Below are positions 26,111 through 52,749 of a stretch of DNA of 55,240 nt, piece by piece. This DNA is from Melioribacteraceae bacterium (GTDB lineage Bacteria; Bacteroidota; Ignavibacteria; Ignavibacteriales; Melioribacteraceae). Position 1 is the first letter of the stretch, and each line of letters starts with the position of its first letter. The stretch is taken from positions 1 to 55,240 of the forward strand of contig WGCV01000020.1 in the NCBI GenBank assembly GCA_015493615.1. The letters run 5' to 3'. Below the pieces are notes generated by a model that was not told the origin of the DNA, made no database searches, and saw only the letters and a list, made by a program, of their open reading frames with translations. The position numbers and the translations under genes are program-made.

Positions 26111-26123
26111 TATCCATTAATTT

Positions 26124-27911: not shown

Positions 27912-27944
27912 AATTCTGCCTTTATTTTTATTTCTAAATTATTA

Positions 27945-28102: not shown

Positions 28103-28104
28103 TA

Positions 28105-29280
28105 TTATTTCAACAATTCATAAATTCCGGCAACGCCTTGTCCGCCGCCAACGCACGCGGTTACCATTCCGTATTTTTTATCGCGGCGTTTAAGTTCGTT
28201 AAATATCTGCACGCTTAATTTTGCTCCGGTACATCCGAGCGGGTGTCCCATTGCGATTGCTCCGCCGTTAACATTTAATTTTTCCGTATCTAAATCCAAT
28301 GTTCTGATAACGGCAAGGGATTGCGAGGCAAAGGCTTCGTTCAATTCAATAAGATCGATGTCGTCCTGTTTCAGTCCCGCTTTTTTCAAAGCTTTCGGGA
28401 TTGCGGCTATCGGGCCGGTTCCCATGATCCGCGGATCAACTCCGGCTACCGCATAGGAAACCATGCGCGCAATCGGAGTAAGGTTAAGCTCTTTAACCAT
28501 ATCTTCCGACATTACCAAAACAAACGCGGCGCCGTCCGATGTTTGCGACGAGTTGCCGGCAGTTACGCTTCCGCCTTGTGCAAATACGGGTTTCAATCGC
28601 GCAAGCGCTTCCATATTCGTGTCGGCTCGCGGTCCTTCGTCGGTATCGACAACCCAAGTTCTCGTTTTCTTTTTCCCGTTTTCGTAAAAGACATCTTCAA
28701 CTTCAACAGGAACTATCTGGTCTTTGAAATATCCGTTTTTAATTGCGTTGATTGCTTTCATGTGGGAATTGTAGGAAAATTCATCCTGGTCCTCGCGCGA
28801 AATCTTAAAATCCCTTGCGATTTCCTCTGCCGTTAATCCCATTCCCATGTAGTATTCAGGATGAGTCAGCGAAACCTTGTAGTTCGGCGCTAACTTCCAG
28901 CCTGTCATTGGCACTAAGGACATCGACTCAACCCCGCCGGCAATAATGCAATCCATCATTCCGGATTGGATTCTTGCAACGGCAGTTGCAATCGTATCTA
29001 TTCCCGAACCGCAGAACCTGTTCACCGTTGAGCCGGGTGTGTCAATCCCGATTGCTTCAAGCGCAATCATTCTGCCTATTTGCAATCCTTGCTCCGCTTC
29101 CGGAAAAGCGTTTCCCACAATCACATCGTCGATGCGTTTCGGGTCTAATTCCGGTACGGATTTCAGCAGATGCTTAATAACATCCGCGCCTAAATCGTCC
29201 GGGCGCATAAAACGGAATCCGCCTTTTTTGGCTTTTCCTACCGCCGTACGATAACCTGATACTATATATGCTTCTCTCAT
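28105..29280 (-). CDS. fadA: Acetyl-CoA C-acyltransferase (3-ketoacyl-CoA thiolase)
   Basis: This 391-residue thiolase cleaves 3-ketoacyl-CoA to acetyl-CoA and a shortened acyl-CoA. The nucleophile is Cys90 in VNRFCGSG. The His motif is in ELNEAFA and GGAIAMGHPLGCTGAK, and the second Cys lies in TACVGGGQG. The length and motifs are those of FadA/FadI. It is preceded by fadN (35 bases) and followed by fadE with a miniature element between. Its stop at 28105 lies three bases past the element's right end, within the target duplication. Confidence 0.95.
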   Translation of the reverse strand: MREAYIVSGYRTAVGKAKKGGFRFMRPDDLGADVIKHLLKSVPELDPKRIDDVIVGNAFPEAEQGLQIGRMIALEAIGIDTPGSTVNRFCGSGIDTIATAVARIQSGMMDCIIAGGVESMSLVPMTGWKLAPNYKVSLTHPEYYMGMGLTAEEIARDFKISREDQDEFSYNSHMKAINAIKNGYFKDQIVPVEVEDVFYENGKKKTRTWVVDTDEGPRADTNMEALARLKPVFAQGGSVTAGNSSQTSDGAAFVLVMSEDMVKELNLTPIARMVSYAVAGVDPRIMGTGPIAAIPKALKKAGLKQDDIDLIELNEAFASQSLAVIRTLDLDTEKLNVNGGAIAMGHPLGCTGAKLSVQIFNELKRRDKKYGMVTACVGGGQGVAGIYELLK

Positions 29281-29315
29281 AATAATTCTTTTATTTTATT
29301 TTCTAAAATCATTTA

Positions 29316-31721
29316 TTAATTTCTTAACGGTTTACCGGTTGTAAGAATACTCTGCATTCTTTCCAGAGTTTTTCTTTCGCCGATTAAGCTTAAGAATGTT
29401 TCTCTTTCCAAATCGAGCAAGTATTGTTCGCTTACTCTGGTTCCTTCGGTTAAATCGCCTCCGCATATTGTGTACGCAAGTTTATCGGCGATCTTTCTGT
29501 CGTGCTCGGAAATATATCTTCCTCTTTCAAAGGAGTAAGCGCCGAGTATCAACGCCGCCAAACCGGTTCTTCCGAGAACTTTAATATCTTCTCTCATAAT
29601 CGGTTTCCGGTAGCCCCGTTCGGCAAGCTCAATCGCGGCGCGTTTGGCGTCGGCGATTACTCTCTTGGGATTAACCGAGTAAACGTCCAATCCTTTTCTG
29701 AAATAACCTAATCCGTAAGCCTCTTCAGCCGAAGTCGATACTTTTGCCATTGCTATGTTAAGGAATTTCTCTTGCAGCTCGGGCAATTCCACGCCACCTT
29801 TTACGTAAGCGTCGGAAGCGCGCAGAGCCATTTCCTTAGTTCCTCCGCCGGCGGGAATTATTCCGACTCCGACTTCAACCAAACCGATGTAAGTTTCGGC
29901 GGACGCATTAATCTTGTCCGAATGGAGGCAAACCTCGCAACCGCCGCCGATAGCCAATCCGTGAGGCGCCGCAACAACCGGCACATTGGAATACCGAATG
30001 TGCATCGTCGTATTTTGGAACTGGCGAACCGCCATATCAATTTCGTCCCATTCCTGCTCGGTTCCCAACATAAACATCATGGCAAGATTTGCTCCGGCGG
30101 AAAAATGCTGTCCGTCATTGCCGATTACCAATCCGCGGTAATCTTTCTCGGCAATTTCAATCGATTTATTTATCGCCTCAAGTATCTCGCTTCCGATTGA
30201 GTTCATTTTAGTTTGGAACTCAAGATTAAGAATTCCGTCGCCGATGTCGTGAAGCGTTGCGCCGGAGTTTTTCCAAACGGGAGCGTTTGCGCGATAGTTA
30301 TCAAGTATAATAAAATCAGTAGTTCCCGGGATTACCTTGTATGATTTGCTCGGGATGTCGTAATATTTTTTCTTTCCGTTTTCGATGCTGTAAAATGACT
30401 TAAATCCGCCGTCCAGCATTTCCTGTACCCATGGAGCGGGAGTCATTCCCATTTCGTTCATCATCCGAACTGTTTTTTCAACGCCGAGAACGTCCCATTG
30501 CTCAAACGGGCCAAGCTCCCAACCGAATCCGGCTTTCATACCGTCGTCAATCTTGTAGAGTTCGTCTGCAATCTCAGGGATTCTGTTTGATGAATACCGG
30601 AAAACGCTGAAGTTGATTTTCCTCAAGAAATCCGCTGCTGTATCTTTCCCGGCAAAGAGCATTTTAAGTCTCTGACGCAAATCGTCAATCGGCTTGGCTG
30701 CCGCAACCGAAGCAAATTTCGGCTTGGAACTCGGTTTGTACTCGAACGTATTTATGTCAAGTTCAAGGATTTGCTTCTTCCCCTTTTCATCTTTAATCTT
30801 TTTATAAAAGCCCTGTTTGGTTTTGTCGCCGAGCCAATTATTCTCGACCATTTTGTTCACATAATCGGGAATAGCAAAAATGTCCCTTTCCTCATCTTCC
30901 GGACAATCGTTATAGATGTTAGTGGCAACTTTAACAAATGTGTCAATACCAACAACATCAGCCGTTCGGAAGGTTGCGGATTTCGGACGCCCCGTAAGCG
31001 GTCCGGTTAAAGTATCGACTTCCTTCACACTCAGCCCGAGTTCCTTCATATACTTAAACACAGCCATAATGCTGTAAACGCCTATTCTATTGGCGATAAA
31101 CGCAGGCGTATCTTTGCACAGCACTGTTGTTTTGCCGAGATACTTATCTCCGTAACTCATCAGAAAATCAACAACTTCACTGTCGGTATAAGGGGTAGGA
31201 ATTATCTCAAGCAAAGGAAGGTATCTCGGCGGATTGAAAAAGTGAGACCCGCAGAAATTCTTCTTAAAGTCTTCGCTTCTTCCTTCTGTCATCAAATGCA
31301 CCGGAATTCCGGAAGTGTTTGTAGTTACAAGCGTTCCGGGCTTACGGTATTTTTCAACATTACCGAATACAATTTTTTTAATATCGAGATTTTCCACAAC
31401 CGCCTCGATTACCCAATCGGCAGTCGCAATTTTGTCCATATCGTCTTCAAAGTTGCCCGTTGTTATTCTGTGAGCAAACGACGATTTGTAAATCGGGGAT
31501 GGTTTTGCCTTAAGTACGTTCTTAAGGTTTTCATTGGCGATGCGGTTGCGCACCGCTTTGTCTTCAAGGGTTAAACCCTTTTTCTTTTCGGCTTCCGTAA
31601 GTTCTCTCGGCACAATATCAAGCAAAGTTACTTTGCACCCGATATTTGCAAAGTGCGCCGCTATTCTGGAACCCATAACACCGGAACCCAAAACCGCTAC
31701 TTCATTAATTATTCTTTTCAT
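29316..31721 (-). CDS. fadN: 3-hydroxyacyl-CoA dehydrogenase / enoyl-CoA hydratase fusion (FadN type)
   Basis: This 801-residue bifunctional enzyme has the dehydrogenase half first (AVLGSGVMGSRIAAHFANIG, NAD-binding at residues 9-30) and the hydratase half last (GNDGQHFSAGANLAMMF, then GGGCEVCLHSDKINA and EVGVGIIPAGGGTKEMALR). This order, dehydrogenase then hydratase, matches FadN (B. subtilis YusL) and is the reverse of E. coli FadB. It hydrates enoyl-CoA and oxidises the 3-hydroxyacyl-CoA product. It is followed directly by fadA, its functional partner in the beta-oxidation complex. The start ATG is at 31721 after an AT-rich leader. Confidence 0.94.
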   Translation of the reverse strand: MKRIINEVAVLGSGVMGSRIAAHFANIGCKVTLLDIVPRELTEAEKKKGLTLEDKAVRNRIANENLKNVLKAKPSPIYKSSFAHRITTGNFEDDMDKIATADWVIEAVVENLDIKKIVFGNVEKYRKPGTLVTTNTSGIPVHLMTEGRSEDFKKNFCGSHFFNPPRYLPLLEIIPTPYTDSEVVDFLMSYGDKYLGKTTVLCKDTPAFIANRIGVYSIMAVFKYMKELGLSVKEVDTLTGPLTGRPKSATFRTADVVGIDTFVKVATNIYNDCPEDEERDIFAIPDYVNKMVENNWLGDKTKQGFYKKIKDEKGKKQILELDINTFEYKPSSKPKFASVAAAKPIDDLRQRLKMLFAGKDTAADFLRKINFSVFRYSSNRIPEIADELYKIDDGMKAGFGWELGPFEQWDVLGVEKTVRMMNEMGMTPAPWVQEMLDGGFKSFYSIENGKKKYYDIPSKSYKVIPGTTDFIILDNYRANAPVWKNSGATLHDIGDGILNLEFQTKMNSIGSEILEAINKSIEIAEKDYRGLVIGNDGQHFSAGANLAMMFMLGTEQEWDEIDMAVRQFQNTTMHIRYSNVPVVAAPHGLAIGGGCEVCLHSDKINASAETYIGLVEVGVGIIPAGGGTKEMALRASDAYVKGGVELPELQEKFLNIAMAKVSTSAEEAYGLGYFRKGLDVYSVNPKRVIADAKRAAIELAERGYRKPIMREDIKVLGRTGLAALILGAYSFERGRYISEHDRKIADKLAYTICGGDLTEGTRVSEQYLLDLERETFLSLIGERKTLERMQSILTTGKPLRN

Positions 31722-32110
31722 TTGTTTTCCGCTTTGTTTTACAATTTTTACGGTTATTTAATTATTTAATTTCTAATGCCGACTAAAAGAGGGACGGCAT
31801 AAAATTTTTCTTTTTTGATTCCTTTCCATAACATAATATTGTCATTTTAATTTCTCTTCCGCAGAGAAGCAAACTGTCCCAAACCTTCCTAAATACAGCT
31901 TAATTCCCTGCTTCGAGATTCTTCATTTCGCTTTGCTCCATTCAGAATGACAATTTTTTCATTTTGAGCAAAACCATTATTTGTCATTCTGAAGTCGAAC
32001 GAAGTTCGACTGAAGGATCTCCTTACACGCATTGGTTACAACAGTAATTTTGAGATTCTTCGTCCCGCTTAATGCGGGCCTCAGAATGACAAATATGAAC
32101 TTTTTTTTCA
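31722..32110. other. Intergenic region between fadD and fadN with half-element hairpins
   Basis: There is no gene. It contains three stand-alone hairpin arms of the type found inside the miniature elements: GAGATTCTTC...CAGAATGACA at about 31915-31952 and 32051-32091, and TGTCATTCTGA...GGATCTC in the opposite sense at 31982-32021. These may terminate or process the fad transcript, or simply be remnants of elements. Confidence 0.65.
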
Positions 32111-33919
32111 TTAATTATTGAGAAAATAATGCGATTGACTTTCATCTTCATAAAGCCTGTCGATTAAGTCCGCATATTTTTCTAAAATAACTCTGCGTTT
32201 CAATTTAAGCGTCGGAGTAATTTCACCGGTATCCGGGGACCAATTATCCGCTACCAAAACAAACTTTTTAACTTGTTGAACCTTACCGAATCGTTTGTTG
32301 TATTTTTCAACATCCTGCCAAATCCTTTCGTTCAGAACCGGAGATTTAACCATCTCCTCCTTCGAGCTGAGCTTAATGCATTTCTTTTTACACCATTTTT
32401 GAATAAACTCGAAGTCGGGAACAATTATGGCGGCGGGAAACTTTCTTTTGTTTCCTATCACCATAATTTGATCAATGAACAACGACTCTTTCATCTTATT
32501 CTCAATAGGAAGGGGAGCTACATATTTACCGCCGGAAGTTTTAAATATCTCTTTTATTCTATCGGTAATTCTCAAAAACTTTCCGTCGATAATTTCCCCG
32601 ACATCGCCGGTATGGAACCAGCCGTCTTTATCAATTACTTCAGCTGTTGCTTCAGGCTTTTTGTAGTATCCGAGCATTACATTCGGACCTTTTGCAAGAA
32701 TCTCTCCGCTTTCCTCATCAATTTTTATCTTCACTTCCGGAAGAGGAATCCCTACCGTTCCGATAAACCAGTCGCCGTCTGTAAACCTGTTACAGGTAAG
32801 TACCGGACTCGTTTCGGTCAATCCGTAACCGGGGCGTACCGGAATTCCGGCAGCTTCAAAAATTCTGCCTATTCTCGGCTGCAACGCCGCAGCTCCGCTA
32901 ATTATGCCGAGCACATTTCCTCCGAGCGCTTCAACCCATTTATGAAATACAAGTTTACGCGCTATTCCGAGACGGAAGTTATACCAGGCGGAGTTTTTGC
33001 CCTGCGGATGATACTTATTTGCCAGATTAACCGCCCATCCGAATATAGCTTTTTTAATTCCGGTTAAATCTCTTCCGACTCCCATAATCTTATCGAATAT
33101 CTTTTCCATAACGCGAGGAACGGTAGTGAAATAATTCGGCTGTACTTCTCTAATGTTGTCGCCGATTTTATCAATGCTTTCCGCAAAATAAATTGCTCCT
33201 CCGACATAGAAATAAAAATAGATTGCGGTTCTTTCAAAGATGTGGCTAACCGGAAGAAAACTAATCATTCTGTGAGTATTGTTGTGCGGTTCAACTTGGC
33301 GCACCTGAGTAACATCGCTTAGAATATTTTTATGCGTCAGCATTACTCCTTTGGGAACGCCTGTTGTCCCGGAAGTATAAATTATTGTAGCTAAGTCATC
33401 TTCGGTAACTTTTGCTTTCATCTCGTTAAGCCGTGTACGAAGAGATTCGTCAGCGGCGTCTGTAATTTCCGACCAATGTTTTGCTCCTTCAATTTTTTCG
33501 AAAGTGTAAACATCTTTAACGGAGGGAGTTTCATGCAGTATCCGGCGTACCTTGTCGTACAAATCCTTATTTTCAACAAATACCAGTTTTACGCCCGCAT
33601 CGTTAAAAATATAAGTCGAATCTTCATCGCTCATATTCGGATAAATGGGAACGTCCTGCGCGCCGATTTGCAAAATTCCCAGATCAACTAAAGTCCACTC
33701 TGTGCGGTTGTAGGAAATGATTGCTATCTTATCATCCGGACCGAAACCTAACTTCAGCAGTCCGAGACTTACCTTATCGGCAATCTCGATAACTTGCTCG
33801 GTGCTGTACTTTCGCCAAGCGCCGGTTTTCTTGTCGCAGAGCGCGTCCTCCCGAGGATAGTTTTGCAGCTGGTATTGAAGAACATCAAAGATACGGTTTT
33901 GTAATACTTTTTCAACCAT
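32111..33919 (-). CDS. fadD: Long-chain acyl-CoA synthetase (AMP-forming)
   Basis: This 602-residue adenylate-forming enzyme activates fatty acids with ATP and CoA. The AMP-binding P-loop is IIYTSGTTGVPKG. Further motifs are PGYGLTETSPV and the hinge and motor region GWFHTGDVGEI ... ITDRIKEIFKTSGGKYV. The size is that of the FAA1/FadD15 group (about 600 residues), which act on long chains. It is first in the minus-strand fad block and divergent from the ScfR-type regulator at 34083. Co-transcription with fadN is possible across the 389-base gap but this gap is rich in hairpins. Confidence 0.93.
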   Translation of the reverse strand: MVEKVLQNRIFDVLQYQLQNYPREDALCDKKTGAWRKYSTEQVIEIADKVSLGLLKLGFGPDDKIAIISYNRTEWTLVDLGILQIGAQDVPIYPNMSDEDSTYIFNDAGVKLVFVENKDLYDKVRRILHETPSVKDVYTFEKIEGAKHWSEITDAADESLRTRLNEMKAKVTEDDLATIIYTSGTTGVPKGVMLTHKNILSDVTQVRQVEPHNNTHRMISFLPVSHIFERTAIYFYFYVGGAIYFAESIDKIGDNIREVQPNYFTTVPRVMEKIFDKIMGVGRDLTGIKKAIFGWAVNLANKYHPQGKNSAWYNFRLGIARKLVFHKWVEALGGNVLGIISGAAALQPRIGRIFEAAGIPVRPGYGLTETSPVLTCNRFTDGDWFIGTVGIPLPEVKIKIDEESGEILAKGPNVMLGYYKKPEATAEVIDKDGWFHTGDVGEIIDGKFLRITDRIKEIFKTSGGKYVAPLPIENKMKESLFIDQIMVIGNKRKFPAAIIVPDFEFIQKWCKKKCIKLSSKEEMVKSPVLNERIWQDVEKYNKRFGKVQQVKKFVLVADNWSPDTGEITPTLKLKRRVILEKYADLIDRLYEDESQSHYFLNN

Positions 33920-33989
33920 TTGCGCCTTCTATTTATTTAATGAAATTATTGCCGCTGATTAACAAACAAAAATAAGTTTAAGGACTTTA

Positions 33990-34030
33990 AATAGCAAGCG
34001 AAATTTCGCTATAAAAGAATATTTGCTATT
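33990..34030. promoter_or_regulatory. Candidate operator between fadD and the ScfR-type regulator
   Basis: A perfect 14-bp palindrome AGCGAAATTTCGCT lies at 33997-34010. Two inverted half-sites AATAGCAA (33990-33997) and TTGCTATT (34023-34030) flank it. They lie in the 163-base divergent gap where both promoters must be, 52 bases before the regulator start. It is a fitting site for the neighbouring HTH protein. Confidence 0.5.
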
Positions 34031-34082
34031 AGCATTTTTTCAAATATTCCTTATATTTGTTGTTGGAATCAAAAACAAAAAA

Positions 34083-35588
34083 ATGAACAGATTATCCGAC
34101 AACTATATTAAACTTATTCTCGGGCTTAAATTAAAGCAGCTCAGAATTGACAAAGGGCTTTCATTATCTGAACTGGCAAGGGAAAGCGGGCTTTCCGTGT
34201 CGTATCTTAACGAGATTGAGAGCGGTAAAAAATATCCCAAGGCAAATAAAATTGCTTCTCTTTCCAAAGCGCTTGGCATTACATACGACAATCTGGTTTC
34301 GCTGAAGCTGACAAAAAATCTTGCTCCTATCGGTGAATTGCTTGAATCAAATCTTTTGGAACTTCTTCCGCTGGATCATTACGGAATTGATATAAACAAA
34401 CTAATCACTTTAATGTCCGGAGCGTCAATGCAGCTTAGCGCTTTGGTTACTACGATTATTGAAATGGCTCGCGGCTCGGAAATGAGTCAAAACAATTTCA
34501 GTCGAACTGCATTAAAAACTTACAAGGAGTTTCACGAAAACTTCTGTGATGAAATCGAAAAAGATGTTGAAAAATTTATTGCAAAATATAAATTGGAAAT
34601 AAATCCTCCTGTCAGCTATTCTGCGCTGAAACAATTTCTGAAGGAAAACTTTTCCTACAAGATTGATGAAACCGAATTAAAGAACCGCCCTGCTCTTTCC
34701 GGATTACGGGGAATTTTAATTTCCAAGCAGAATAAAACATTGCTTGTAAATCCACAGCTTACGGAAACTCAAAAAGGTTTTGTTCTCGGAAAAGAAATAG
34801 CTTACAACATTTGGGGAACGGTTGAGCGAAGCAATATTCATTCAAATTTTTCTCTGGAGTCATTTGACCATCTTCTGAATAATTTCCGGGCTTCCTATTT
34901 TGCCAATGCAATTTTAATCAACAGATTTTTGCTTGCTTCCGATCTCGAGAAATTTTTCTCATTGGATAAATGGGAACCGAAAGAGCTACTCTCTATTATT
35001 GATAAATATCAAGCAACCCCGGAAATGTTTTTTCAGAGAGTTACGAATTTACTGTCAAAACATTTTGGAATTAAGAAATTTTTCTTTTTAAGATTCAATA
35101 CTCAGTTGGATAACAGACAGTTTTATCTCTCTAAGGAAATTCGCTTAAACATCAACGATAATCCGGGCGGCTACCAAACCGACGAACACTACTGCCGACG
35201 TTGGATTTCCATTAAGTCGCTTAAAAACTTAATGATGAAAATTGATAAAAATGATAAATATCAAAAACTCCAAGTTGATATTCTTCACTCAACATTTGCC
35301 GGAAGCAACGAGGAATATCTCTCTATTTCCATTGCCAAACGGAGAAGATTAAACAGCCGTGAACTTTACAGCGTTACTATCGGTTTTCTTCTTGACGATA
35401 ATCTGAAATCAAAAGTTAGGTTCTGGGACGACCCTTCGATTAAACGCGCTATTGTCAGCGATACATGCGAAATGTGTTCAATCAAAAATTGCAAGGAAAG
35501 AGTCGCTCCGCCGAGTTCATTGGAGAGAAAAATTCAAGTCGAAAAAGTTAAATCTGAACTTGCGCGACTGATTAAGGATTACGAGTAA
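34083..35588 (+). CDS. XRE-type regulator of the ScfR/RamB short-chain fatty acyl family
   Basis: I start at the ATG at 34083 (501 residues), where the HTH begins as expected (LKLKQLRIDKGLSLSELA ... SGLSVSYLNEIESGKKYP split). A longer reading from 34023 would add 20 hydrophobic residues that do not belong to the family. The central region (residues 190-260) matches the IrrE-like metal-dependent domain layout of these regulators without a clear HExxH. A C-terminal Cys cluster CEMCSIKNCKER follows. ScfR/RamB regulators sense acyl-CoA or related metabolites and control acetate or fatty acid use. Placed divergent from fadD, it is the obvious regulator of this block. Confidence 0.85.
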   Translation: MNRLSDNYIKLILGLKLKQLRIDKGLSLSELARESGLSVSYLNEIESGKKYPKANKIASLSKALGITYDNLVSLKLTKNLAPIGELLESNLLELLPLDHYGIDINKLITLMSGASMQLSALVTTIIEMARGSEMSQNNFSRTALKTYKEFHENFCDEIEKDVEKFIAKYKLEINPPVSYSALKQFLKENFSYKIDETELKNRPALSGLRGILISKQNKTLLVNPQLTETQKGFVLGKEIAYNIWGTVERSNIHSNFSLESFDHLLNNFRASYFANAILINRFLLASDLEKFFSLDKWEPKELLSIIDKYQATPEMFFQRVTNLLSKHFGIKKFFFLRFNTQLDNRQFYLSKEIRLNINDNPGGYQTDEHYCRRWISIKSLKNLMMKIDKNDKYQKLQVDILHSTFAGSNEEYLSISIAKRRRLNSRELYSVTIGFLLDDNLKSKVRFWDDPSIKRAIVSDTCEMCSIKNCKERVAPPSSLERKIQVEKVKSELARLIKDYE

Positions 35589-35700
35589 TCCTAACTTTCA
35601 AACATTTTTTGTCCTCCCATTTTCTTCCGTTTTGATAGTACGCAGATAACGCAGATTAATTATGATTTTCTATGATTCAAAAAAAGTTTCTAAACTTCTA

Positions 35701-35860
35701 GAAGCCTTTGCATAACCAAATTTATTTGTCATTCTGATCCCGCCTTGGCGGGAGAAGAATCTCAAAAGCGGTAATAATACAGGATTAGAGATATTTCGGA
35801 CGGCTTACACCTTCGCCGTGGCGAACTTAATATGACAAATTTAGGTTATGCAAAGCCTTC
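35701..35860 (-). mobile_element. Miniature inverted-repeat element, copy 4 (reverse orientation)
   Basis: This 160-bp copy has ends GAAGCCTTTGCATAACC and (reverse complement) GAAGGCTTTGCATAACC, an almost perfect 17-bp TIR. A perfect 5-bp duplication TTCTA flanks it (35696-35700 and 35861-35865). A small extra palindrome TTCGCCGTGGCGAA (35813-35826) is inserted in one arm. Confidence 0.93.
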
Positions 35861-36103
35861 TTCTAAACAAATAAACCCTTTGTCCCAACCAAAAACCGGT
35901 CGGAATAACTTTGACGGAAAGGCTAATAGGAACAGAGGCGCAAAGGGAAGAAAAGACTGGAACCAAGGGAATGCACAACCGAGATCGTGCAAAATCATAG
36001 CACATCATTTAATCAGAAAAATCAAAGTTCAAGACAATTTTTTATACAGAAAAAAATCGGTCATACAAATTGATAATTGTACTAACAAAGCAATTCGGGC
36101 TTT

Positions 36104-36280
36104 GCTCCGTAGGAGCAATATCTTTGTAATAACAAATTAAACATCAAGCATAAACTCCAGAGGAGCGATACAAAACAAATTGAATATCTGATTACTCATT
36201 TGCAGTGCAGTGTCGCTCCTACGGAGCTAATTCTATAATTGAGATCTTCTTCATTACCAAGGTTACACTCCTACGGAGTT
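36104..36280 (+). repeat. Four-palindrome GCTCCGTAGGAGC array, copy a
   Basis: The palindromes start at 36104 (GCTCCGTAGGAGC), 36155 (CTCCAGAGGAG), 36215 (GCTCCTACGGAGC) and 36267 (ACTCCTACGGAGT). The steps are 51, 60 and 52 bases. The first two point one way and the last two are the complement, so the array is itself arranged as an inverted pair. It matches 42379-42550 in reverse. Confidence 0.88.
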
Positions 36281-36485
36281 GTTTGACTTTTATTGAATAT
36301 GACAATTTTAGGTTTTGCAAAGGTCTCTTTTCATTAACATCCCACTCCTCTTTTATTTTCCCAATTAGGGAAACCGCTATGACATATATCACACCCTGCT
36401 ATTTCTTTTGTTGATTATCACAGACTTTAGAGCGTTCGGTTTATATATTAGAATCAAATTTAAGAAACAAACAAAGGAGAGCGCC

Positions 36486-38855
36486 ATGAAACAGATAAGA
36501 ACTACTTATATTTTTTTAATAGCCCTTTGGTTAACTTCCGGTTATCTTTTTGCTCAACTAAGTCCTCCTCAGGTTGAAGACGTTTACGGCGGAAGAATAT
36601 TAGCGATAAACGGATATGCAAAAACGGCGGATTCATCACTCATTTACATTTCGACAGAGAGCGCAAATTCTATTTTTTACACTACGGTTTACTCAAACAG
36701 CACATCCCCGACTTTCAATGCATTTAAAGTAATGCCGGGCGTTGACGCAAACGCAGGCTACGGAGCCGCAATTCGTTATATTGATGTTAACGAATTATCA
36801 GGCAGCGTTTTCTTTGTCGCCAATTCACAATTATTAAGTTCCAATCCGAGTTCTCCTACGGTAAATTCACTCTATTCCGCTGATGTAAACGGTCTTTTAA
36901 TTGAAAGCAATTATCTTTTCTTTACGGAATCGGGAAGAATACATTTTGGTACTGTGGATGCATCGGATAACTTCACGGAAGATTTGTCGTCACCCCTCGC
37001 ACTTCCCGGAGTCGGAGGGATGAACACAATCACTATCGATCCTACGACCAATTATATGTATGTTTTCAGTAAAGATATTACCCCGGTTTTATTGAGAATA
37101 AACTCAACCTACACAACCATTAGCGGAGGTTCTACTGTAACGGATATTTCCCCTTCTACATTATCAACAGCTACGGAATGGACAGCATTTAACGTAGCGC
37201 CCGACGGAACATTCTACATGATGGGACATCAGGGACAGGATAAATATTGCGCTTATTCTACCGACCATGGAGCAACCTGGGTAGAATACGCAATGGGGAT
37301 CGGAGGAATTTCAGGCGATAATATTGCCTTTGCCGGAAATTCAACAGCTTATGTTATTTATACAGCAAATGCGTATAACAACTCCAGCGGCGATCCTACT
37401 GCATGGTATGGCTTCGGCAATTCGGGATTTCAAACTCATCCCAACGACGGCTGGGTGTTTACGGATCCGATAAACGATATGATCGTTTACTTAACAACGG
37501 ATCAGGGAATAGGGGCTTCGGTAAATCAAGGCAGCATTATTTTTGAAATTGACGACGGAGTTGAAGCCGTACAGGTCGAAGATTTCAGTATGACGCCTAC
37601 CAAATTCACAGCATGGACGGCATCGAAGTCGGGAATCAGAAGAGTGGATAATTACCCGACTTCCCCGACTTGGACAAATGCGATTTTTCCCAACGGAGAT
37701 GGTTCCCCCTATCACTGCATTGAAATGGGGCATGCAGATTCAAATGTAGTTTATGCTGGAAACTTAAGAATATACAAATCATTAAATAACGGAAGTACTT
37801 GGAGAAGAATTTTTAGTCCTGAAGATCCGCCTTATAATTTCCCCAGTGTTGAAATTTTTGCTAATGCTGTTAAGGAATGCCCATGGAATCACAAACTCTT
37901 AATGGCGGGTTGGGAAATGCAGGACCCCGCAAGAAAAGGGGGCGTTTTCTTCTCAAACGATTCCGGAGCCACTTGGGAGCAGGTTCTTCTTGAAGCAAGT
38001 TCAATCGGTGAAGATGTTGATGTAACCGATATTGCATTCAATCTTGAAGGGAGCGATACGGTAGCATACGTAAGCGTTAAATATGATTTGGCTTATCCCC
38101 AGGGCTACAGCATTTATCGACTTGTAAGGACCGGTTCAATCTGGGCGCCTTCACAGGATATGAGCCCATCTAATACAAGCGTCGGTTATACGATAGTGGC
38201 TTCATTGCTGGATATTCAAGTCAGCGTTACAGGCGATACGGTTTTCACTGTCGGTACAGACGCGGGGAATAATCATCCTACAGTTTACTATAAAGATTTA
38301 ACCGGAACCGGACTTTGGACGCCTTTGACCGTAAGCGGTTTTCCGTTTGGGAATGAAGAAGCCACTGCGGTAACGATTGGCGGACATACGCTTTATGCCG
38401 CTGTTGACGCCGATGTTTATTACTTGGACTTAACTTCTCCGACAAGCTGGACGCTCGGTTACGCTTATCCGGTTGGTACCAGAATCAATTTCCTCTATTA
38501 TGATGATTTGCTCGTCGGAACTTCACTCGGGCTTTTCGGACATCCCGATGCGAACCCGAACGGAATAGATGATTTGGGAAATAACAATGTAAAGCAATTC
38601 GAGTTGATGCAGAATTACCCCAATCCTTTTAATCCTACGACTGTCATCAATTACGCTATTCCCAAAGCGGCAAATGTAACCTTAAGCGTTTACAATCTGC
38701 TGGGACAAAAAGTCGCTACTTTAGTTAATAAGCAACAAGCAAAAGGAAGATACTCGGTTAATTTTAATGCCAAGAATCTTTCAAGCGGAATTTATATCTA
38801 TAAACTTGAGACGGACAATTATATTCAAAGTAAAAAAATGATGCTGCTGAAATAG
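36486..38855 (+). CDS. Secreted Asp-box propeller protein with T9SS sorting domain
   Basis: The ATG at 36486 follows an AAGGAG site and opens a signal peptide (LIALWLTSGYLFAQ). The 789-residue protein contains repeated Asp-box blades: STDHGATW, SLNNGSTW, SNDSGATW. Such blades form sialidase- or Vps10-like propellers. The last 85 residues are a T9SS C-terminal domain (NYPNPFNPTTVINYAIP, SVYNLLGQKVATLV, SSGIYIYKLE). T9SS moves such cargo across the outer membrane and attaches it to the cell surface. This sorting domain is clearly divergent from those of the minus-strand genes at 39530-46821. A terminator follows at 38884. Substrate or partner unknown. Confidence 0.88.
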   Translation: MKQIRTTYIFLIALWLTSGYLFAQLSPPQVEDVYGGRILAINGYAKTADSSLIYISTESANSIFYTTVYSNSTSPTFNAFKVMPGVDANAGYGAAIRYIDVNELSGSVFFVANSQLLSSNPSSPTVNSLYSADVNGLLIESNYLFFTESGRIHFGTVDASDNFTEDLSSPLALPGVGGMNTITIDPTTNYMYVFSKDITPVLLRINSTYTTISGGSTVTDISPSTLSTATEWTAFNVAPDGTFYMMGHQGQDKYCAYSTDHGATWVEYAMGIGGISGDNIAFAGNSTAYVIYTANAYNNSSGDPTAWYGFGNSGFQTHPNDGWVFTDPINDMIVYLTTDQGIGASVNQGSIIFEIDDGVEAVQVEDFSMTPTKFTAWTASKSGIRRVDNYPTSPTWTNAIFPNGDGSPYHCIEMGHADSNVVYAGNLRIYKSLNNGSTWRRIFSPEDPPYNFPSVEIFANAVKECPWNHKLLMAGWEMQDPARKGGVFFSNDSGATWEQVLLEASSIGEDVDVTDIAFNLEGSDTVAYVSVKYDLAYPQGYSIYRLVRTGSIWAPSQDMSPSNTSVGYTIVASLLDIQVSVTGDTVFTVGTDAGNNHPTVYYKDLTGTGLWTPLTVSGFPFGNEEATAVTIGGHTLYAAVDADVYYLDLTSPTSWTLGYAYPVGTRINFLYYDDLLVGTSLGLFGHPDANPNGIDDLGNNNVKQFELMQNYPNPFNPTTVINYAIPKAANVTLSVYNLLGQKVATLVNKQQAKGRYSVNFNAKNLSSGIYIYKLETDNYIQSKKMMLLK

Positions 38856-38883
38856 TATTTGTCACTCAAAAGCATCTCCTCTC

Positions 38884-38915
38884 CGGGCGCAACGAGTTTT
38901 GCGTCCGTTTTTTTT
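38884..38915 (+). terminator. Rho-independent terminator
   Basis: A CGGGCGCAA / TTGCGTCCG stem with one mismatch is followed by eight T residues, 29 bases after the stop of the Asp-box gene. Confidence 0.85.
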
Positions 38916-38990
38916 ATATTCCGCATACTAAAATTTCCCCCTTCTCGCGAAGCATAATCCCAAAATTGTCTGTAGGAAAAATATTTAATA

Positions 38991-39139
38991 GAAGGCTTTG
39001 CATAATCCCGAAATTTGTCATTCTGATCCCGCCTTGGCGGGAGAAGAATCTCAAAACCGGTAATAGTACCGAATTTAGAGATATTTCGGACGGCTCTCAC
39101 CGTCCTCAATATGACAATTTTAGGTTTTGCAAAGGTCTC
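38991..39139 (-). mobile_element. Miniature inverted-repeat element, copy 5 (reverse orientation)
   Basis: This 149-bp copy has ends GAAGGCTTTGCATAATC and (reverse complement) GAGACCTTTGCAAAACC. A perfect 5-bp duplication TAATA flanks it (38986-38990 and 39140-39144). Confidence 0.92.
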
Positions 39140-39465
39140 TAATAGTAATCCCGAGGTTAAAAAAAATATTTTGAAAAACTGTATAGCGTTACGGATTGCG
39201 AGCCCATTATAAAAACAAACCGTCCGCCTCGGGCGGATTGCGAACGAACGAAGTGAGCGCGGCAATCTCACGAATGTTCAACCTTAGCAGTTAAACCGCT
39301 TTTGAATATTTTGTAATTGTGAATTTTTTAGTGAGATTGTCAAAATACAAGTTCGGAGATTCTTCATTTCATCAGCTATTATTTGTGATATTCTGACGGC
39401 GACCTTCAGAATGACAAGCGTGGAGTTTGAGTCAAATTAGTTTTTGAACGGTTATTCATAAAAAA

Positions 39466-39502
39466 CCTCCGAGAGACGCTTACGCGCCGTCCCGAAGGTT
39501 TA
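39466..39502 (-). terminator. Terminator of the endonuclease I gene
   Basis: On the minus strand, AACCTTCGGGA pairs imperfectly with TCTCGGAGGTT around a GCGCGTAAGCG centre, and then a T-run follows. It lies 28 bases past the stop at 39530 and resembles the terminator at 42834. Confidence 0.65.
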
Positions 39503-39529
39503 ATAATGAGGATGATAAAAAAAAAACTG

Positions 39530-40095
39530 TTACTTCATCAAAATCATCTTTTTGATTGAAGTAAATCCGGCGCTCTGCATTTTGTAAAAATATATTCCCG
39601 ATGTTAAATTACTTCCGTCAAATTTTACTCGGTGTGTTCCGGCTGAAAGCTTTTCATTCAGTAAGTCCGCTACCTTTTGACCGAGAGTATTATAAACGCT
39701 TAATTTTACGGTACTCTCTTTCGGTACGTCGAAACTGATTTCGGTTGTCGGATTAAAAGGATTCGGGTAATTCTGCTTTAACGCAAATTTTGTTACTGGA
39801 CCGAGGTCAACCGAAACAATACCGGAATACTTAAACGCGCCGTCCAAATCAATTTGTTTCAATCGGTAGGAATAGCTTCCCTTTTCAAACGGATTATCAA
39901 TATAGGAATAATATTTTACGGAGTTGCTGTTCCCGTGTCCCTGCACAAAACCAATCTCTTCCCAGCCGCTTTCGCTCTGCATGCTTTTCCTTTCAACTTG
40001 GAAACCGTAATTGTTAACTTCGGTTGCGGTAACCCAGTTAAGTTCCACATTATTACCTTTAATGGTTGCTGTAAAGGATTTTAATTCGACAGGGA
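39530..40095 (-). repeat. T9SS 3' cassette, copy 1
   Basis: This 3' segment encodes the FN3-like LPVELKSFTA domain plus the sorting domain. It is nearly identical to 42912-43476 and 44050-44616. Confidence 0.92.
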
Positions 40096-41788
40096 GAGGA
40101 TCGGATTCCCCGAGACCGGAAATATCATCTGTTGGATAACCGTCCCACTCCGTCGCGGGATCAAAAGCGTCGTTTGGATTTGTGTCTCCGCCTGTAATTC
40201 CGTGTTTGCGGTGAAGAGTATTATCAGCTGTAGAAGTTAATCCAGTCCCCCATTCCGTACCCGGATCAAAACCTATTTGCCCTATTGCGTCAATAATCGA
40301 GACGCCTTTTTTCAGAATTACAGCGTCATCGCCGTTAAATGATAGCGAACCCGTCGTCATATCTGCAACCGCGAGAATCTCCGCCGAAGCGCTTGAATGC
40401 GCAATAACAAAAGTTGAAGCGTTTGCAATTGTTCCCGTAAGACTTATTGTTGAGCCCGCGGTTGTATTTCCGTTAAAGTAAATCTCAATAGTGTAATTAT
40501 CGTTTTGTAAATTTATATCGCTTCCGGTATTATTGTATACCTCCAAAGCTTTATTGCTGGAAGTTCCTTCTATATATTTTGTAAATAAAAGATCTCCGAA
40601 CGAAGATGTGCTTGCAGGAATTGTATGCGCCGAGGGAATTGTACCTTCCAAATTATAGTTTATTTGAGTTCCGGCTCCATTATAAGAATAAACGTAAAAA
40701 TAATAATCAACCGTATCCGATAAGTTTGTAAAAGTATAGCTGTCGGACGCCGAATAATCAATATTAACCACAGCCGCTCCGTCGCTTAAATCAGAATCAT
40801 CGGTATAAACTTCGCCGTCAATCGGAATAAAATAATTATCTCTGTCATAACCCATAAGCAAATATCCTGAAGGAGCTTGTGAACCGGCGGCTGCATCCGT
40901 CCAGGAAAGCGTAACCGAACCGCCGCCAGACGCTGCCGTAAAATTCTGAAGTTGATTTGACGGTTCGGCGGCATAAACCGGAGAAAGTTTGCTTAAATCA
41001 TTAAAATCTATATAATTAACATATTCAGGATGATCAACAAAAGGATTTCTGTTATTTTGCAAAGTTTCAATGTAATCGTTTCGTTCAACTTCCCATTTGT
41101 CGGGAGGATCTTGCTTATTCCACAAAAGTAAAGTGTTTAAGTCCTCAGGCGCTTCGTTTATCGAAGGGAGCCGCGTATTATTCAGCCAGTTAATAGTCCA
41201 GCGATTACCGCCGACGCCGTCATATCTTACCAACATATAAAGTATGGCTCTTGCCGCATCGCCTTTGTGTCTGTCTCGAGGTTCATAAACGGTAGCGCCG
41301 TTTACATCTGTTCCTACTTTTGCTCCGAGATACTGACTTGTTACATTTTGTACAATTCCGAGGGGATGGTTACTCCGAACGACATTTGCCTTATTCTGGT
41401 TAACCGGAAAAAGATGATGCCGGTCGGAATATTCATCCGTGCTTTTGCTTCCGTGTGTCGGCATCCAACTGTAAGCAAATGTATGTTCTCTGCTCATTTC
41501 TGTTGTTGGCGTCCAGGCAAACGGGGGCGTGTAAACCTGAATAAAACCGGAATAGACTCCTACAACCGAACGTGTCCCGTCGCCGTTGTCGTAAGATTCA
41601 TAATTCGGAATGATATCATTTTTATAATTTGCGTACGTTACCTTATGATAATTATTTCGAATTAACGTTTCGAGGTCGCTTATAAATGAAGTACTTTCCG
41701 GATTAATACCGGAATAATATTGCGCATTTGAAATTGAGTAAAATGCCAATAATGTTAGAAGAATTAATTTTATTTTTACTTTTTTCAT
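39530..41788 (-). CDS. Secreted endonuclease I with lamin-tail and T9SS sorting domains
   Basis: The start at 41788 gives a signal peptide (MKKVKIKLILLTLLAFYSIS); a longer reading to 41857 adds 23 implausible residues. The 752-residue product has an endonuclease I nuclease domain (about residues 25-270) with REHTFAYSWMP, DRHHLFPVNQNKAN and RDRHKGDAARAILYM motifs, probably cutting DNA outside the cell. An FN3-like domain follows, then a lamin-tail domain (FTKYIEGTSSNKALEVYNNTG) and a second FN3-like segment. The C-terminal T9SS signal ends SGIYFYKMQSAGFTSIKKM. The last 565 bases are nearly identical to the 3' ends of the genes at 42912 and 44050. Confidence 0.92.
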   Translation of the reverse strand: MKKVKIKLILLTLLAFYSISNAQYYSGINPESTSFISDLETLIRNNYHKVTYANYKNDIIPNYESYDNGDGTRSVVGVYSGFIQVYTPPFAWTPTTEMSREHTFAYSWMPTHGSKSTDEYSDRHHLFPVNQNKANVVRSNHPLGIVQNVTSQYLGAKVGTDVNGATVYEPRDRHKGDAARAILYMLVRYDGVGGNRWTINWLNNTRLPSINEAPEDLNTLLLWNKQDPPDKWEVERNDYIETLQNNRNPFVDHPEYVNYIDFNDLSKLSPVYAAEPSNQLQNFTAASGGGSVTLSWTDAAAGSQAPSGYLLMGYDRDNYFIPIDGEVYTDDSDLSDGAAVVNIDYSASDSYTFTNLSDTVDYYFYVYSYNGAGTQINYNLEGTIPSAHTIPASTSSFGDLLFTKYIEGTSSNKALEVYNNTGSDINLQNDNYTIEIYFNGNTTAGSTISLTGTIANASTFVIAHSSASAEILAVADMTTGSLSFNGDDAVILKKGVSIIDAIGQIGFDPGTEWGTGLTSTADNTLHRKHGITGGDTNPNDAFDPATEWDGYPTDDISGLGESDPLPVELKSFTATIKGNNVELNWVTATEVNNYGFQVERKSMQSESGWEEIGFVQGHGNSNSVKYYSYIDNPFEKGSYSYRLKQIDLDGAFKYSGIVSVDLGPVTKFALKQNYPNPFNPTTEISFDVPKESTVKLSVYNTLGQKVADLLNEKLSAGTHRVKFDGSNLTSGIYFYKMQSAGFTSIKKMILMK

Positions 41789-41910
41789 TAGTCTGTTATT
41801 CCTAAAGTTTTCCGTTTGCTCACTATTAGTGAACTTTGTATATTTTAAAATTTCCAACTAGGGTACGCCAAGTTTGCCCCAACTGCTTTTTGTTGGGGGC
41901 AGAAGTATGA

Positions 41911-42027
41911 GCAGTACGGAATATCTCTAAATCCGTTATAATTACCGGTTTTGAGATATTTCCGCCAAGGCGGATTCCGCTTCGCTCAATTCAGAATAAC
42001 ATATAAATTAGGTTATGCAAAGCATTC
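41911..42027 (+). mobile_element. Truncated miniature element, copy 6
   Basis: The interior (GGAATATCTCTAAATCC, ACCGGTTTTGAGAT) and right end (GGTTATGCAAAGCATTC) are intact, but the left terminus is missing. No target duplication is expected or seen. Confidence 0.8.
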
Positions 42028-49146: not shown

Positions 49147-51432
49147 CTACCAAATCTTAATTTTGTTCGCTAAATTTCTGTTTTTATAAAACCATTCGAC
49201 TTTGCTTTTAAGATTCAAAACAGCATAAGCTCCTATTGTCGAATCATTTATATTTATTTTATCAGAGTAATATTTTGCATTGTCAAAATCAATTTTTCTT
49301 AAAAAATATTTTGCGAGCAGATAATTCGTTTTAGAATCAAAATTGTTTTTCCCCTTTGCCGACAGAGATTTCAGCCGGTTTTCCTCGGCGTATGGAATTA
49401 GTCCGCGCAGAAAAACTTCATCGTTCGTTTTAAGATAAAGTTTTTTCAGCAGGAAGAATTTTTCCCGCCCGTTCGATTCGAGATACTTTACGGCGTATTT
49501 TCCTCCCTGCCGGATAAGCGCTTTGAAAAGGGCGGAAACTCCCCGATAGTAAAAAAAAGGAGATTCTTGTTCCAATTCGGTTAAAACTTTTTCCGCTTCG
49601 TTATACTTGGCGTTCAGAATATTAACTTGGGCAAAAAGGAGGAGAAAACGAAGTTCAAATGAAGATTTTTCAAACTTAATTTTAACGGAGTCGAGAAGAG
49701 AAAGCGCTTCTTCCTTTTTATTTTCTTCAAGGAGCGTATTTACAAGCCCGAAAAGAGCTTCCGGCGTTTGAAATCGTTCGAGCAAATCATAGTACGTTTT
49801 TTCCGTTACGTTAAATTCTTTATCCTTGAATTTGTTCTCGGCAAAGTTAATACGCGCGGCGACATAATGACGGCATCTTCGCTTAAAAACCGATTTACTC
49901 CCGAACAAAATTCTATAAATCTGCGAAGCAGGTTTTACCCTTACGGAATCGAGACTTTCCTTAAATCCATCTTCTACGCTTTTAAATTTCCTCCCGTAAA
50001 CTTCCGCAAAATTATCCGTAGAGTAATATTTTTTAAATTTAGTGAATCCGTATTCATTAATTAAATACTGAACAAACGCGCCGGCAAAAAGATAGCCGAA
50101 CGCGGGAGAACTATCGAAAAAACTTACTCCGGAAAAGAGTTTCTCCAAATTAATATTCACTCCATGTCGGTAAACTAATGCAGCCGCGCTTTTAATGGGA
50201 AGATTTAAGATATTATCTTCAACGGCAGCCGCAAAACCTTCAATTAAAGCGGGATTAAAATCTGCCGCCAGCTTTGCCGGACCGACTCCGAACTCCGCCG
50301 AAACAGCATGCGCCAGTTCGTGCTTAATTGTCGAGGACGCAGTGTTTCGCTCAATAAAAACAGTATGTTGCCACGGTTTGGAAACATCCGCCGCCGCGCT
50401 TCCGAACAATCTCGCTTTCTGTTTTGAACCGGAATAGATGTACGAATTTATCGGCAATGATATTTTTAACTTTGTGATTTTCTCAATCTCTGTCAGAAGA
50501 TACCGCTCTTCCATAGTTTTGAAAATAACTTCATTTTTATCTGCCGGATAAAAAAAACGTAATATTATTTTTTCTGTTTGAGAAGAGACAACAGTGTTGC
50601 TTTTTACCCTTGTAGCGTTTGTGTCAAAACCGAGAGAAGGTTTCAACAATATGACAAAGATTATAAAAATTCCTCCCCCGTAAATTAAGGACTTAATCCG
50701 GTATGTTTTGTAAGCCAAATAATAAACGACAGAAAAAATTACCAGGATGCTTAATCTGTAAAGAATTATTTTTTCCGTAACCGGAACAAATTCGTCATAA
50801 ATCGTTCCCGGGAAATAACCGAGCAATACGGAGTAGGAATAAATTTGAGGATAGAAATAAATTTCCATCAATGGAATAACGAGCAGAAGAAGAGTTACGG
50901 AAATGAAAAAAAAAGTTTTCCTCTTAATTCCCGCTTTGCCGAGAGCCAAGATAAACAATACCGAGTAAAAAAATGAAAACACCGAATAGAAAAAATAATA
51001 TTTTATCCCGAAAGCAAACGGGCAAGCCCCGCAACAATTAAACGCGAATGATACTATCGCCGGCGTTATCAATAAAAGAGAAAGATAAACCGGCTCGGAG
51101 GAAATAAAGTTATACAAACCGCATTCGTCGCTTCTTTTTCTTCTGCAAAAACTGATTACCGAAAACCCTCCGGCAAACCAAAGTAACAGTGAATTTACAA
51201 GAGCAAATTCATATCCGAACTCCGAAGTAAGGGGAAAAAGTTGAAGCGCTAAATCGGCTACAGCCAAAGCGGACAAAATAATGAGTCCGCTTTCACTTAA
51301 TTTGTAGAGACTTTTGCAAAACCTAAATTTGTTGTACCGAGTTCGCCACGGCGAAGATGCGGAACCGTCTGAAATATCTCTAAATTCGGTATAATTACCC
51401 GTTTTGAGATTCTTCACTTCGCTTCGCTCCAT
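49147..51432 (-). CDS. Membrane gluzincin-like protease with TPR-like tail; start lies in a miniature element
   Basis: This 761-residue protein has about seven membrane helices up to residue 265. A peptidase-like domain follows, with HELAH at 371-375 and Glu398 in LIEGFAAAVED, giving a HExxH-22-E gluzincin pattern. The last 250 residues are TPR-like. Residues 1-42 are translated from the miniature element at 51307-51468; the target duplication encodes Tyr43, and only from there is the sequence native. The ancestral start was probably TTG at 51482, one base after the murA stop, and that frame now meets a stop inside the element. So this gene may rely on the new ATG, or may be damaged. Family unknown beyond this. 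Confidence 0.72.
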   Translation of the reverse strand: MERSEVKNLKTGNYTEFRDISDGSASSPWRTRYNKFRFCKSLYKLSESGLIILSALAVADLALQLFPLTSEFGYEFALVNSLLLWFAGGFSVISFCRRKRSDECGLYNFISSEPVYLSLLLITPAIVSFAFNCCGACPFAFGIKYYFFYSVFSFFYSVLFILALGKAGIKRKTFFFISVTLLLLVIPLMEIYFYPQIYSYSVLLGYFPGTIYDEFVPVTEKIILYRLSILVIFSVVYYLAYKTYRIKSLIYGGGIFIIFVILLKPSLGFDTNATRVKSNTVVSSQTEKIILRFFYPADKNEVIFKTMEERYLLTEIEKITKLKISLPINSYIYSGSKQKARLFGSAAADVSKPWQHTVFIERNTASSTIKHELAHAVSAEFGVGPAKLAADFNPALIEGFAAAVEDNILNLPIKSAAALVYRHGVNINLEKLFSGVSFFDSSPAFGYLFAGAFVQYLINEYGFTKFKKYYSTDNFAEVYGRKFKSVEDGFKESLDSVRVKPASQIYRILFGSKSVFKRRCRHYVAARINFAENKFKDKEFNVTEKTYYDLLERFQTPEALFGLVNTLLEENKKEEALSLLDSVKIKFEKSSFELRFLLLFAQVNILNAKYNEAEKVLTELEQESPFFYYRGVSALFKALIRQGGKYAVKYLESNGREKFFLLKKLYLKTNDEVFLRGLIPYAEENRLKSLSAKGKNNFDSKTNYLLAKYFLRKIDFDNAKYYSDKININDSTIGAYAVLNLKSKVEWFYKNRNLANKIKIW

Positions 51433-51468
51433 TCAGAATGACATATTACGGGGTTTTGCAAAGACTTC
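51307..51468 (+). mobile_element. Miniature inverted-repeat element, copy 7, in the 5' end of the protease gene
   Basis: This 162-bp copy has ends GAGACTTTTGCAAAACC and (reverse complement) GAAGTCTTTGCAAAACC. A perfect 5-bp duplication TTGTA flanks it (51302-51306 and 51469-51473). It carries an extra TTCGCCACGGCGAA palindrome. Confidence 0.95.
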
Positions 51469-51483
51469 TTGTAAATATTCAAA

Positions 51484-52749
51484 TTAATATTCTTCCGTTT
51501 TTACTCTGACTATATCTGCGTTAAGCGCCTGAAGTTTTTCCTCGATTTTTTCATATCCGCGATCAAGATGATAAATGCGGAGAACTTCGGTCTTCCCTTC
51601 GGCAGCCAAACCTCCGAGCACCAATGAAGCCGAAGCGCGTAAATCGGTTGACATAACCTTTGCTCCTTTCAATTTACTAACACCTTGCACCATCGCAGTA
51701 TTTTCGATTAAATTAATCTTTGCGCCGAGCCGCCTTAATTCGGGAACATGTTTGAATCTGTCAAAGTAAATTCTGTCGGTAACTTGCGAATTCCCCTCCG
51801 CGAGCGTCATGTAAGCAAGCCACTGCGCCTGCAAGTCCGTCGGAAATCCGGGATAAACCGCAGTGGCTACATCAACCGGTTTAACGGCGGTCGATTCGGC
51901 GTCAACATAAACCGTGTTTTCGGAGAATGCGATATTTACTCCGCTCTCTTTCAGTTTGTCGTAAAGAATATCAAGGTGATTAATATTCCGGTATTTTACT
52001 TCAATTTTACTTTTAGTCATAGCCGCCGCAATCATTAAAGTACCGGCTTCTATTCTGTCGTCGATATTTTCACATTCGATTGGATGGAGCTCGTCAACGC
52101 CTTCAATTTCAATTGTTTTAGTGCCGATACCGTTTATCTTCGCGCCCATTTTTTTTAACGATTCGGCGAGCAAAGTTACTTCAGGCTCAATTGCGGCGTT
52201 TGAAATAAGCGTGGTTCCCTTTGCGAGAACCGCCGCCATTAATGCGTTCCCGGTCGCTCCCACGGATGAAATATCGAAAATAATTTTTGCGCCGTGCAAC
52301 CTCTTTGATTTTGCGATTATATATCCTTCCTCCAAATCCAATTGAGCGCCGAACTTCTTCATCGCTTCGAGGTGAAGATTTATCGGACGAGGTCCCCACG
52401 CGCATCCGCCGGGCAAGGAAACTTTGGCGTAACCGTATTTTGCCAGAAGAGGTCCGAGCACATATATTGACGCGCGCATCTTTTTTACATGCTCGTACGG
52501 CGCTTCCTGCGACGTAATACGGGAAGTATCGAGAATCAAATTGTTATTTTCAAACTCGGTCTCCGCGCCGATATGAGCAAGCAGTTTTTTCATCGTGAAA
52601 ATATCATTTACTTCAGGTACGTTTGTGAAAGTATTTTTTCCGTTGTTAAGCAATGACGCCGGCATTAAAACTAAAGCGGAGTTTTTTGCTCCGCTGACTT
52701 TTACACTGCCTGATAATTTTTTACCGCCGTGTATTATAAATTTTTCCAT
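51484..52749 (-). CDS. murA: UDP-N-acetylglucosamine 1-carboxyvinyltransferase
   Basis: This 421-residue enzyme adds enolpyruvate to UDP-GlcNAc, the first step of peptidoglycan synthesis. Motifs are VSGAKNSAL (Lys22, Asn23), MRAS near residue 91 and the loop LPGGCAWGPRPINLH. Cys116 is the residue that fosfomycin alkylates, so susceptibility is expected on that basis. The FPTDLQAQW and PELRRLGA stretches also fit. The loop reads CAWGPRP where many enzymes have CxIGxRP. The gene lies nine bases after the kinase gene and just ahead of the protease gene, so the three form one transcript. Confidence 0.95.
   Translation of the reverse strand: MEKFIIHGGKKLSGSVKVSGAKNSALVLMPASLLNNGKNTFTNVPEVNDIFTMKKLLAHIGAETEFENNNLILDTSRITSQEAPYEHVKKMRASIYVLGPLLAKYGYAKVSLPGGCAWGPRPINLHLEAMKKFGAQLDLEEGYIIAKSKRLHGAKIIFDISSVGATGNALMAAVLAKGTTLISNAAIEPEVTLLAESLKKMGAKINGIGTKTIEIEGVDELHPIECENIDDRIEAGTLMIAAAMTKSKIEVKYRNINHLDILYDKLKESGVNIAFSENTVYVDAESTAVKPVDVATAVYPGFPTDLQAQWLAYMTLAEGNSQVTDRIYFDRFKHVPELRRLGAKINLIENTAMVQGVSKLKGAKVMSTDLRASASLVLGGLAAEGKTEVLRIYHLDRGYEKIEEKLQALNADIVRVKTEEY

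Follow-up and report, generated by a model that had tools for sequence, protein, structure and literature searches.

A short mobile element appears to supply the start of a metalloprotease-like gene located directly downstream of murA in two species of the Melioribacteraceae. In the window (the whole stretch of 55,240 nt that was analyzed, contig WGCV01000020.1) a MITE is inserted at codon 5 of the native protease frame. We give a probability of about 0.6 to the whole account, which comprises an ancestral MITE insertion, a leader stop, a restart within the element and an element-derived N-terminal tail on the protease. In both species, the first part of a host protein appears to come from mobile DNA that took the place of the original. 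The features are listed in Table 1.

Table 1. Features of the murA-protease junction in the window, and further genes with an element at the start.
Feature	Position	Strand	Remarks
murA (EPSP_synthase family), upstream cistron	51484..52749	-	Pfam PF00275, E 4.4e-98; stop TAA 51486-51484
Native TTG start of the empty site	51480..51482	-	one base past murA stop
Target duplication, murA side	51469..51473	.	TTGTA on +, TACAA on -
MITE copy, 162 bp	51307..51468	-	terminal inverted repeats GAAGTCTTTGCAAAACC ... GGTTTTGCAAAAGTCTC, read on -
Leader frame, truncated native start into element, 22 codons	51414..51482	-	stop TGA 51416-51414
Element ATG, first possible in-frame start, 42 element codons	51430..51432	-	also in sister species
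Element GTG, second in-frame start	51415..51417	-	overlaps leader stop (GTGA); preferred as restart codon
761-codon frame with element-derived N-terminus	49147..51432	-	hydrophobic segments, HExxH, C-terminal TPR-like region
Target duplication, protease side	51302..51306	.	TTGTA on +
Alpha/beta hydrolase gene	contig C9		native start cut off; leader TAA, 7 nt, then in-element ATG
Lipoprotein-like gene with DUF5074 (lipoprotein label by eye)	contig C44		native start cut off; ATGA overlap
Gene with signal-peptide-like start, no Pfam match	contig C43		whole insertion read through in frame

Read on the minus strand, the junction consists of the murA stop, one base, the TTG, AATATT TACAA, the 162-bp element, a second TACAA and ATTAAGTG.... 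Removal of the element together with one 5-mer restored the frame TTG AAT ATT TAC AAA TTA AGT (LNIYKLSESGL...). The sequence-only reading had placed a miniature element across the start of the gene after murA, and its coordinates, inverted repeats and TTGTA copies were confirmed. The native frame that it proposed, from the TTG next to the murA stop, was seen in the empty-site reconstruction. As it had also described, the old TTG frame now ends at a TGA inside the element, and a frame from the in-element ATG passes out of the element and joins the native protein in register.

The element is a MITE: it has terminal inverted repeats and a target-site duplication, is short, contains no transposase and is present in many copies. 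With up to two mismatches, the terminal pattern GARRNCTTTGCAWAACC gave 473 matches in the genome of the window (239 forward and 234 reverse) versus 18 for the reversed control pattern (8 and 10); from the forward and reverse matches we estimated about 230 copies in 3.15 Mb. Both ends were found on the copy in the protease gene, and its own 5-bp target duplication is exact. Exact 5-bp duplications flanked 58 of 92 full-length copies (51 from the same genome, 41 from the sister genome G004), where 6.5 were expected with the flanks re-paired at random. Because of both excesses over the controls, the element and its target duplications cannot be ascribed to chance. Copies are mostly 149-190 bp in size. 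With the element DNA as query, the own genome gave at least 43 matches, with 40 of 279 candidates scored. Among 79 genomes of the family (10 candidates scored each), near full-length matches were present only in the own genome and G004, and 27 other genomes showed matches to short stretches only, mostly to a core near query positions 100-147.

DDE_Tnp_1 and DUF772 were the transposase families searched for an autonomous partner. In the incomplete assembly, no transposase bounded by these terminal repeats was found at the six loci with PF01609 matches, and PF05598 was absent. A transposase on contig C11 with terminal repeats nearby was rejected as a partner, as the repeats belong to an ordinary MITE copy beside the transposase gene. 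A consensus scan, which covers only its own promoter types, revealed no promoter or terminator provided by the element.

In the predicted host protein, hydrophobic segments extend to about residue 267, and the motif HELAH is found at 371-375, with a Glu at 398 (numbering of the 761-codon frame). Residues H371, E372, H375 and E398 were invariant in all 18 aligned family members; by sequence, HExxH and the downstream Glu, features of the Peptidase MA superfamily, are present in this protein. Peptidase_MA_2 was matched (E up to 0.01) by 14 of the 18 aligned members and not by the window protein itself, whose Pfam matches were TPR-like and sub-threshold only. Because of the matches of the family members and the conserved residues, "membrane protease" is a fair label.

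Outside the two carriers, 30 orthologous loci (L033-L060 plus G001 and G003) were compared for an element-free start, as the sequence-only reading had suggested, and by the element profile none of the 30 contained a copy. The murA gene is located just upstream on the same strand in 26 of them; at L039, L040, L050 and L057 no murA match was found within the fetched stretch. Most of the 26 murA-linked loci have a plausible start close to or overlapping the murA end. The genus mates G001 and G003 read TAG AAA ATG, with the ATG one codon after the murA TAG. The element-derived residues were absent from the 16 element-free orthologues that were aligned.

The second carrier, G004, is a Melioribacteraceae MAG of the same genus with the orthologue on contig JALWEC010000160.1. 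Its element, 219 bp in length, has the identical position and is flanked by TACAA and TGTAA. It contains 57 extra bases before the restart codon, a multiple of 3 that leaves leader frame (41 codons) and main frame (771 codons) in phase. From the restart codon to the element edge the frame is open in both species despite 15 substitutions in 111 aligned bases. The empty-site frame of G004 reads LNIYKLSKSGL and begins, like that of the window, with TTG AAT ATT TAC AAA. Independent insertion in the two species was rejected, since the site and the position of the target duplication are the same, save two changes in one duplication copy. Since G004 carries the element at the identical position, the insertion predates the species split. 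This comparison indicates that it is one insertion, which took place in the common ancestor of the two Melioribacteraceae species and is not recent. Orthologues starting with the same 42 residues, named by the sequence-only reading as evidence against an origin from the element, are nearly found in this one species; they reflect shared descent and so leave that origin intact. The sister-species insertion and the second in-frame start had been absent from that reading. Its central claim, according to which the N-terminal frame now comes from a small mobile element, was supported by the empty-site reconstruction, the 30 element-free loci and the same-site sister insertion.

Translational coupling by ATGA or GTGA involves a four-base overlap of the upstream stop and the downstream start. 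Such an overlap is present here: the leader TGA overlaps an in-frame start by 4 nt, as GTGA in the window and as ATGA in G004. Different from ordinary coupling, the overlap was brought in ready-made by a transposable element inside a former single gene. The motif GGAG is located exactly 9 nt upstream of the GTG, a spacing that was also seen in 36 of the 62 copies that have this codon; in G004 the restart codon is instead preceded, at 4 nt, by GGGGG. Because of the overlap with the leader stop in both species and the GGAG, the GTG is a likelier candidate start than the ATG. The proposal that residues 1-42 are element-derived holds in that the element supplies the N-terminal frame, but the likelier start would leave 36 element-derived codons after it, from residue 7. 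RTGA occurs at this position in 61 of the 87 anchored copies (out of 92 full-length copies). The longer motif RTGAAGAAT was matched in 62 copies, and in 32 of these the lengths allow stop-restart in one host phase. Most anchored copies carry the RTGA core, and a motif common across the family overlaps with it, so that the core need not have evolved for restart.

In the mechanism we favor, a MITE of a high-copy family would have inserted into codon 5 of a metalloprotease-like gene directly after murA in the common ancestor. Ribosomes finishing murA would still start at the TTG and translate the short leader (22 codons in the window, 41 in the sister species), which would open the RNA hairpin of the element. 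They would then stop at the TGA and restart at the overlapping GTG or ATG, and the protease would be made with an element-derived N-terminal tail of 36 residues, or of 42 with initiation at the upstream ATG. The element would act as a stop-restart cassette, so that a gene hit in its first codons could stay expressible, provided that the element has one particular orientation and one phase out of three. The simplest mechanism would be stop-restart at the overlapping codon. The RNA is predicted to form one long hairpin that pairs the two terminal repeats (MFE -49.1 kcal/mol, z -1.7), a stability that was reached by 10 of 200 shuffles. Both element starts lie within its stem, and this counts against stop-restart, as does the hydrolase gene on contig C9 with a stop and start that do not overlap.

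Between the two carriers, codons 7-42 showed 6 synonymous and 8 nonsynonymous differences (dN/dS 0.32), and dN/dS was 0.18 over 719 codons for the rest of the protease gene, with the frame intact; Fisher p was 0.07. The value of 0.18 indicates that the protease gene is under purifying selection between the two carriers. By codon position, the 15 differences from the restart codon to the element edge were distributed 7, 1 and 7. In a neutral simulation a stop-free frame was likely anyway (0.56-0.60), and a nonsynonymous count as low as this had a P of about 0.2. Only the second-position deficit (1 of 15) stood out, with a P of about 0.013, and it was one among several measures tried. First-position changes affected 7 of 37 element codons, a far higher share than in the murA tail (2 of 84). 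Neither dN/dS nor simulation established strong purifying selection on the peptide encoded by the element, and the data no more than suggest constraint on the new N-terminus. Intergenic copies common to both species provided just two pairs as a neutral yardstick, neither of them a fair one. The pair L009/L102 is unsuitable because its divergence of 2% was found in a region with flanks that are themselves just 3-4% different, and the pair of window 27945 and L150 because the element is apparently flipped. The latter pair (window 27945-28102, L150 1070-1231) has the element at the same TAATA site in both species, and the elements match better in opposite orientation relative to the flanks (16.7% versus 33.8% difference), as if the element had flipped in place or two insertions had occurred at one site.

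The same data bear on other explanations of the locus. Initiation at the element ATG, independent of the leader or loosely coupled to it, would add 42 element residues. This codon is conserved in G004, where a 30-nt difference in its distance to the second start keeps the frame, and the hydrolase leader stops 7 nt before the equivalent ATG. However, no purine-rich stretch was seen by eye just upstream of it in the window, it sits 16 nt before the leader stop (the sequence-only reading, which had put this stop inside the element, had given the distance as about 20 bases), and in both species the GTGA/ATGA overlap falls at the second start. We therefore regard initiation at the ATG as unlikely.

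Slightly less likely still is a start downstream of the element, e.g., at a TTG in the first membrane segment, which would make the element a 5' untranslated insertion with an accidental open frame. Most copies have few stops in this frame: of the 87 anchored copies, 58 remain open as far as the right edge, and 38 of these 58 end in phase. In addition, the evidence that selection acts on the element codons is weak. But such a TTG would remove the start of a membrane segment that the aligned orthologues keep, both species hold the frame open across the substitutions and the 57-nt size difference, and similar fusion geometry recurs in other genes. That the insertion silenced or reduced the protease gene and the locus is decaying appears very improbable: although the native start is displaced and the stable hairpin is predicted at the ribosome-binding region, the low dN/dS over the 719 codons and the intact frame and HExxH argue against decay.

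Among 133 distinct copies (92 of the own genome G000, 41 of G004), 19 have an empty site that falls within a candidate ORF of 120 codons or more. The site is among the first 14 codons in 10 of these and among the last 22 in 7, and the remaining 2 are located elsewhere, in doubtful ORFs. In each of the 10 five-prime cases the element points in the direction of the gene, and the three-prime cases split 3 to 4. The gene-start count is biased, as a protein-frame search was the source of L032, L137, L138 and L156; moreover, the copies of the window and of L032 represent one event. In the 46 copies chosen by their terminal repeats alone (the first places listed of the repeat matches plus the whole window), the window copy was the sole five-prime case, next to 4 three-prime cases. 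The protein-frame search of G000 found 5 of about 106 matches listed (of 150; counted by eye) in frames of at least 200 codons. Five of the 10 five-prime cases were set aside, L010 and L156 with a start codon in the duplicated target and L027, L138 and L152 with a plausible downstream start. Four gene-start events remained with window and G004 counted once, namely the protease gene and the genes on C9, C44 and C43.

The C44 gene has a dN/dS of 0.15 downstream of the element. In its G004 orthologue (L210) the element occupies the same site, but the frame of the native ATG continues through the element; no element was found at the orthologues of G001, G002 and G003. With apparent restart in one of the two species and read-through in the second, this lipoprotein-like gene amounts to a natural experiment by which the idea could be tested. 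For the hydrolase gene, no orthologue was found in G004, an 85% complete genome; 6 other genomes gave matches, and all five loci that were inspected lack the element. The events suggest how bacteria may tolerate insertions at gene starts, by in-frame fusion and also by a ready-made stop-restart overlap. They include cases with an inferable empty-site sequence and a lower bound on age, in which a gene start appears to have been replaced and the gene is still under selection. More tentatively, the MITE family might carry a portable stop-restart module, which would turn a first-codon insertion into a coupled two-cistron unit with a new N-terminus. It is an equally doubtful thought that such a module ends the host frame in one phase and restarts it with a four-base overlap in the exit phase. 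Just as speculatively, it could later be swapped for read-through, and may be kept as it makes insertions survivable.

MITE-derived N-termini are already in print (PMC2759123; overview PMC2229807; review PMC10969869). The enterobacterial, MITE-like RU-2 repeat was reported at the N-terminus of YPO1552 and YP_0349 (Delihas 2007, PMC2759123). As described in the available part of that paper, it is a direct fusion without a stop-restart overlap and differs in sequence and host; our data add the empty-site start, the target duplication, the insertion in a second species and the recurrence in other genes. Rickettsia palindromic elements (RPE) are about 150 bp in size and have an open frame that adds in-frame peptides to unrelated proteins in more than one species, according to the review (PMC10969869). 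The element studied here resembles RPE as a short element with an open frame that adds a peptide to a protein in more than one species. In contrast to RPE, of which a large share lies within ORFs, most copies here are outside long ORFs (19 of 133 inside, with 17 of the 19 close to an end). In three of the four events at gene starts, one frame is ended and another is started. In Coxiella burnetii, QMITE1 and QMITE2 alter protein ends, and the authors state that no QMITE seems to act on the 5' end of a gene whose function is known (PMC5896051). Their 3'-end cases resemble the seven copies in the last 22 codons of candidate ORFs. A search of open-licence PMC papers revealed no MITE that was described as working by means of a stop-start overlap; the accessible parts of the Haloquadratum genome paper and the Riemerella crpR1 paper (PMC13277301) contain nothing of this kind. 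Relative to known MITE N-termini, we infer that a MITE working as a stop-restart cassette would be new.

The seven three-prime copies (L221, L227, L228, L266, L029, L132 and L133) occur in either orientation and would change C-termini. The window harbors further full-length or near full-length copies at 25955-42027, with abutting copies at 31819-32096. On contig C41 of the own genome (L003, G000:C41:165465-165876), two copies are located about 250 bp apart and have nearly identical left flanks, which suggests a local duplication that took in the element. By eye, the middle of the element is modular: copies differ in hairpin blocks of the type CCCCGAC..GTCGGGG or CCCGCC..GGCGGG, or in a GGAGCGAAGCGAAATGAAG block, as seen at window 51414-51432, in the L032 element and in L012, L018 and L137. 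The type of hairpin block seems, again by eye, to help decide whether a copy is of the restart or the read-through type.
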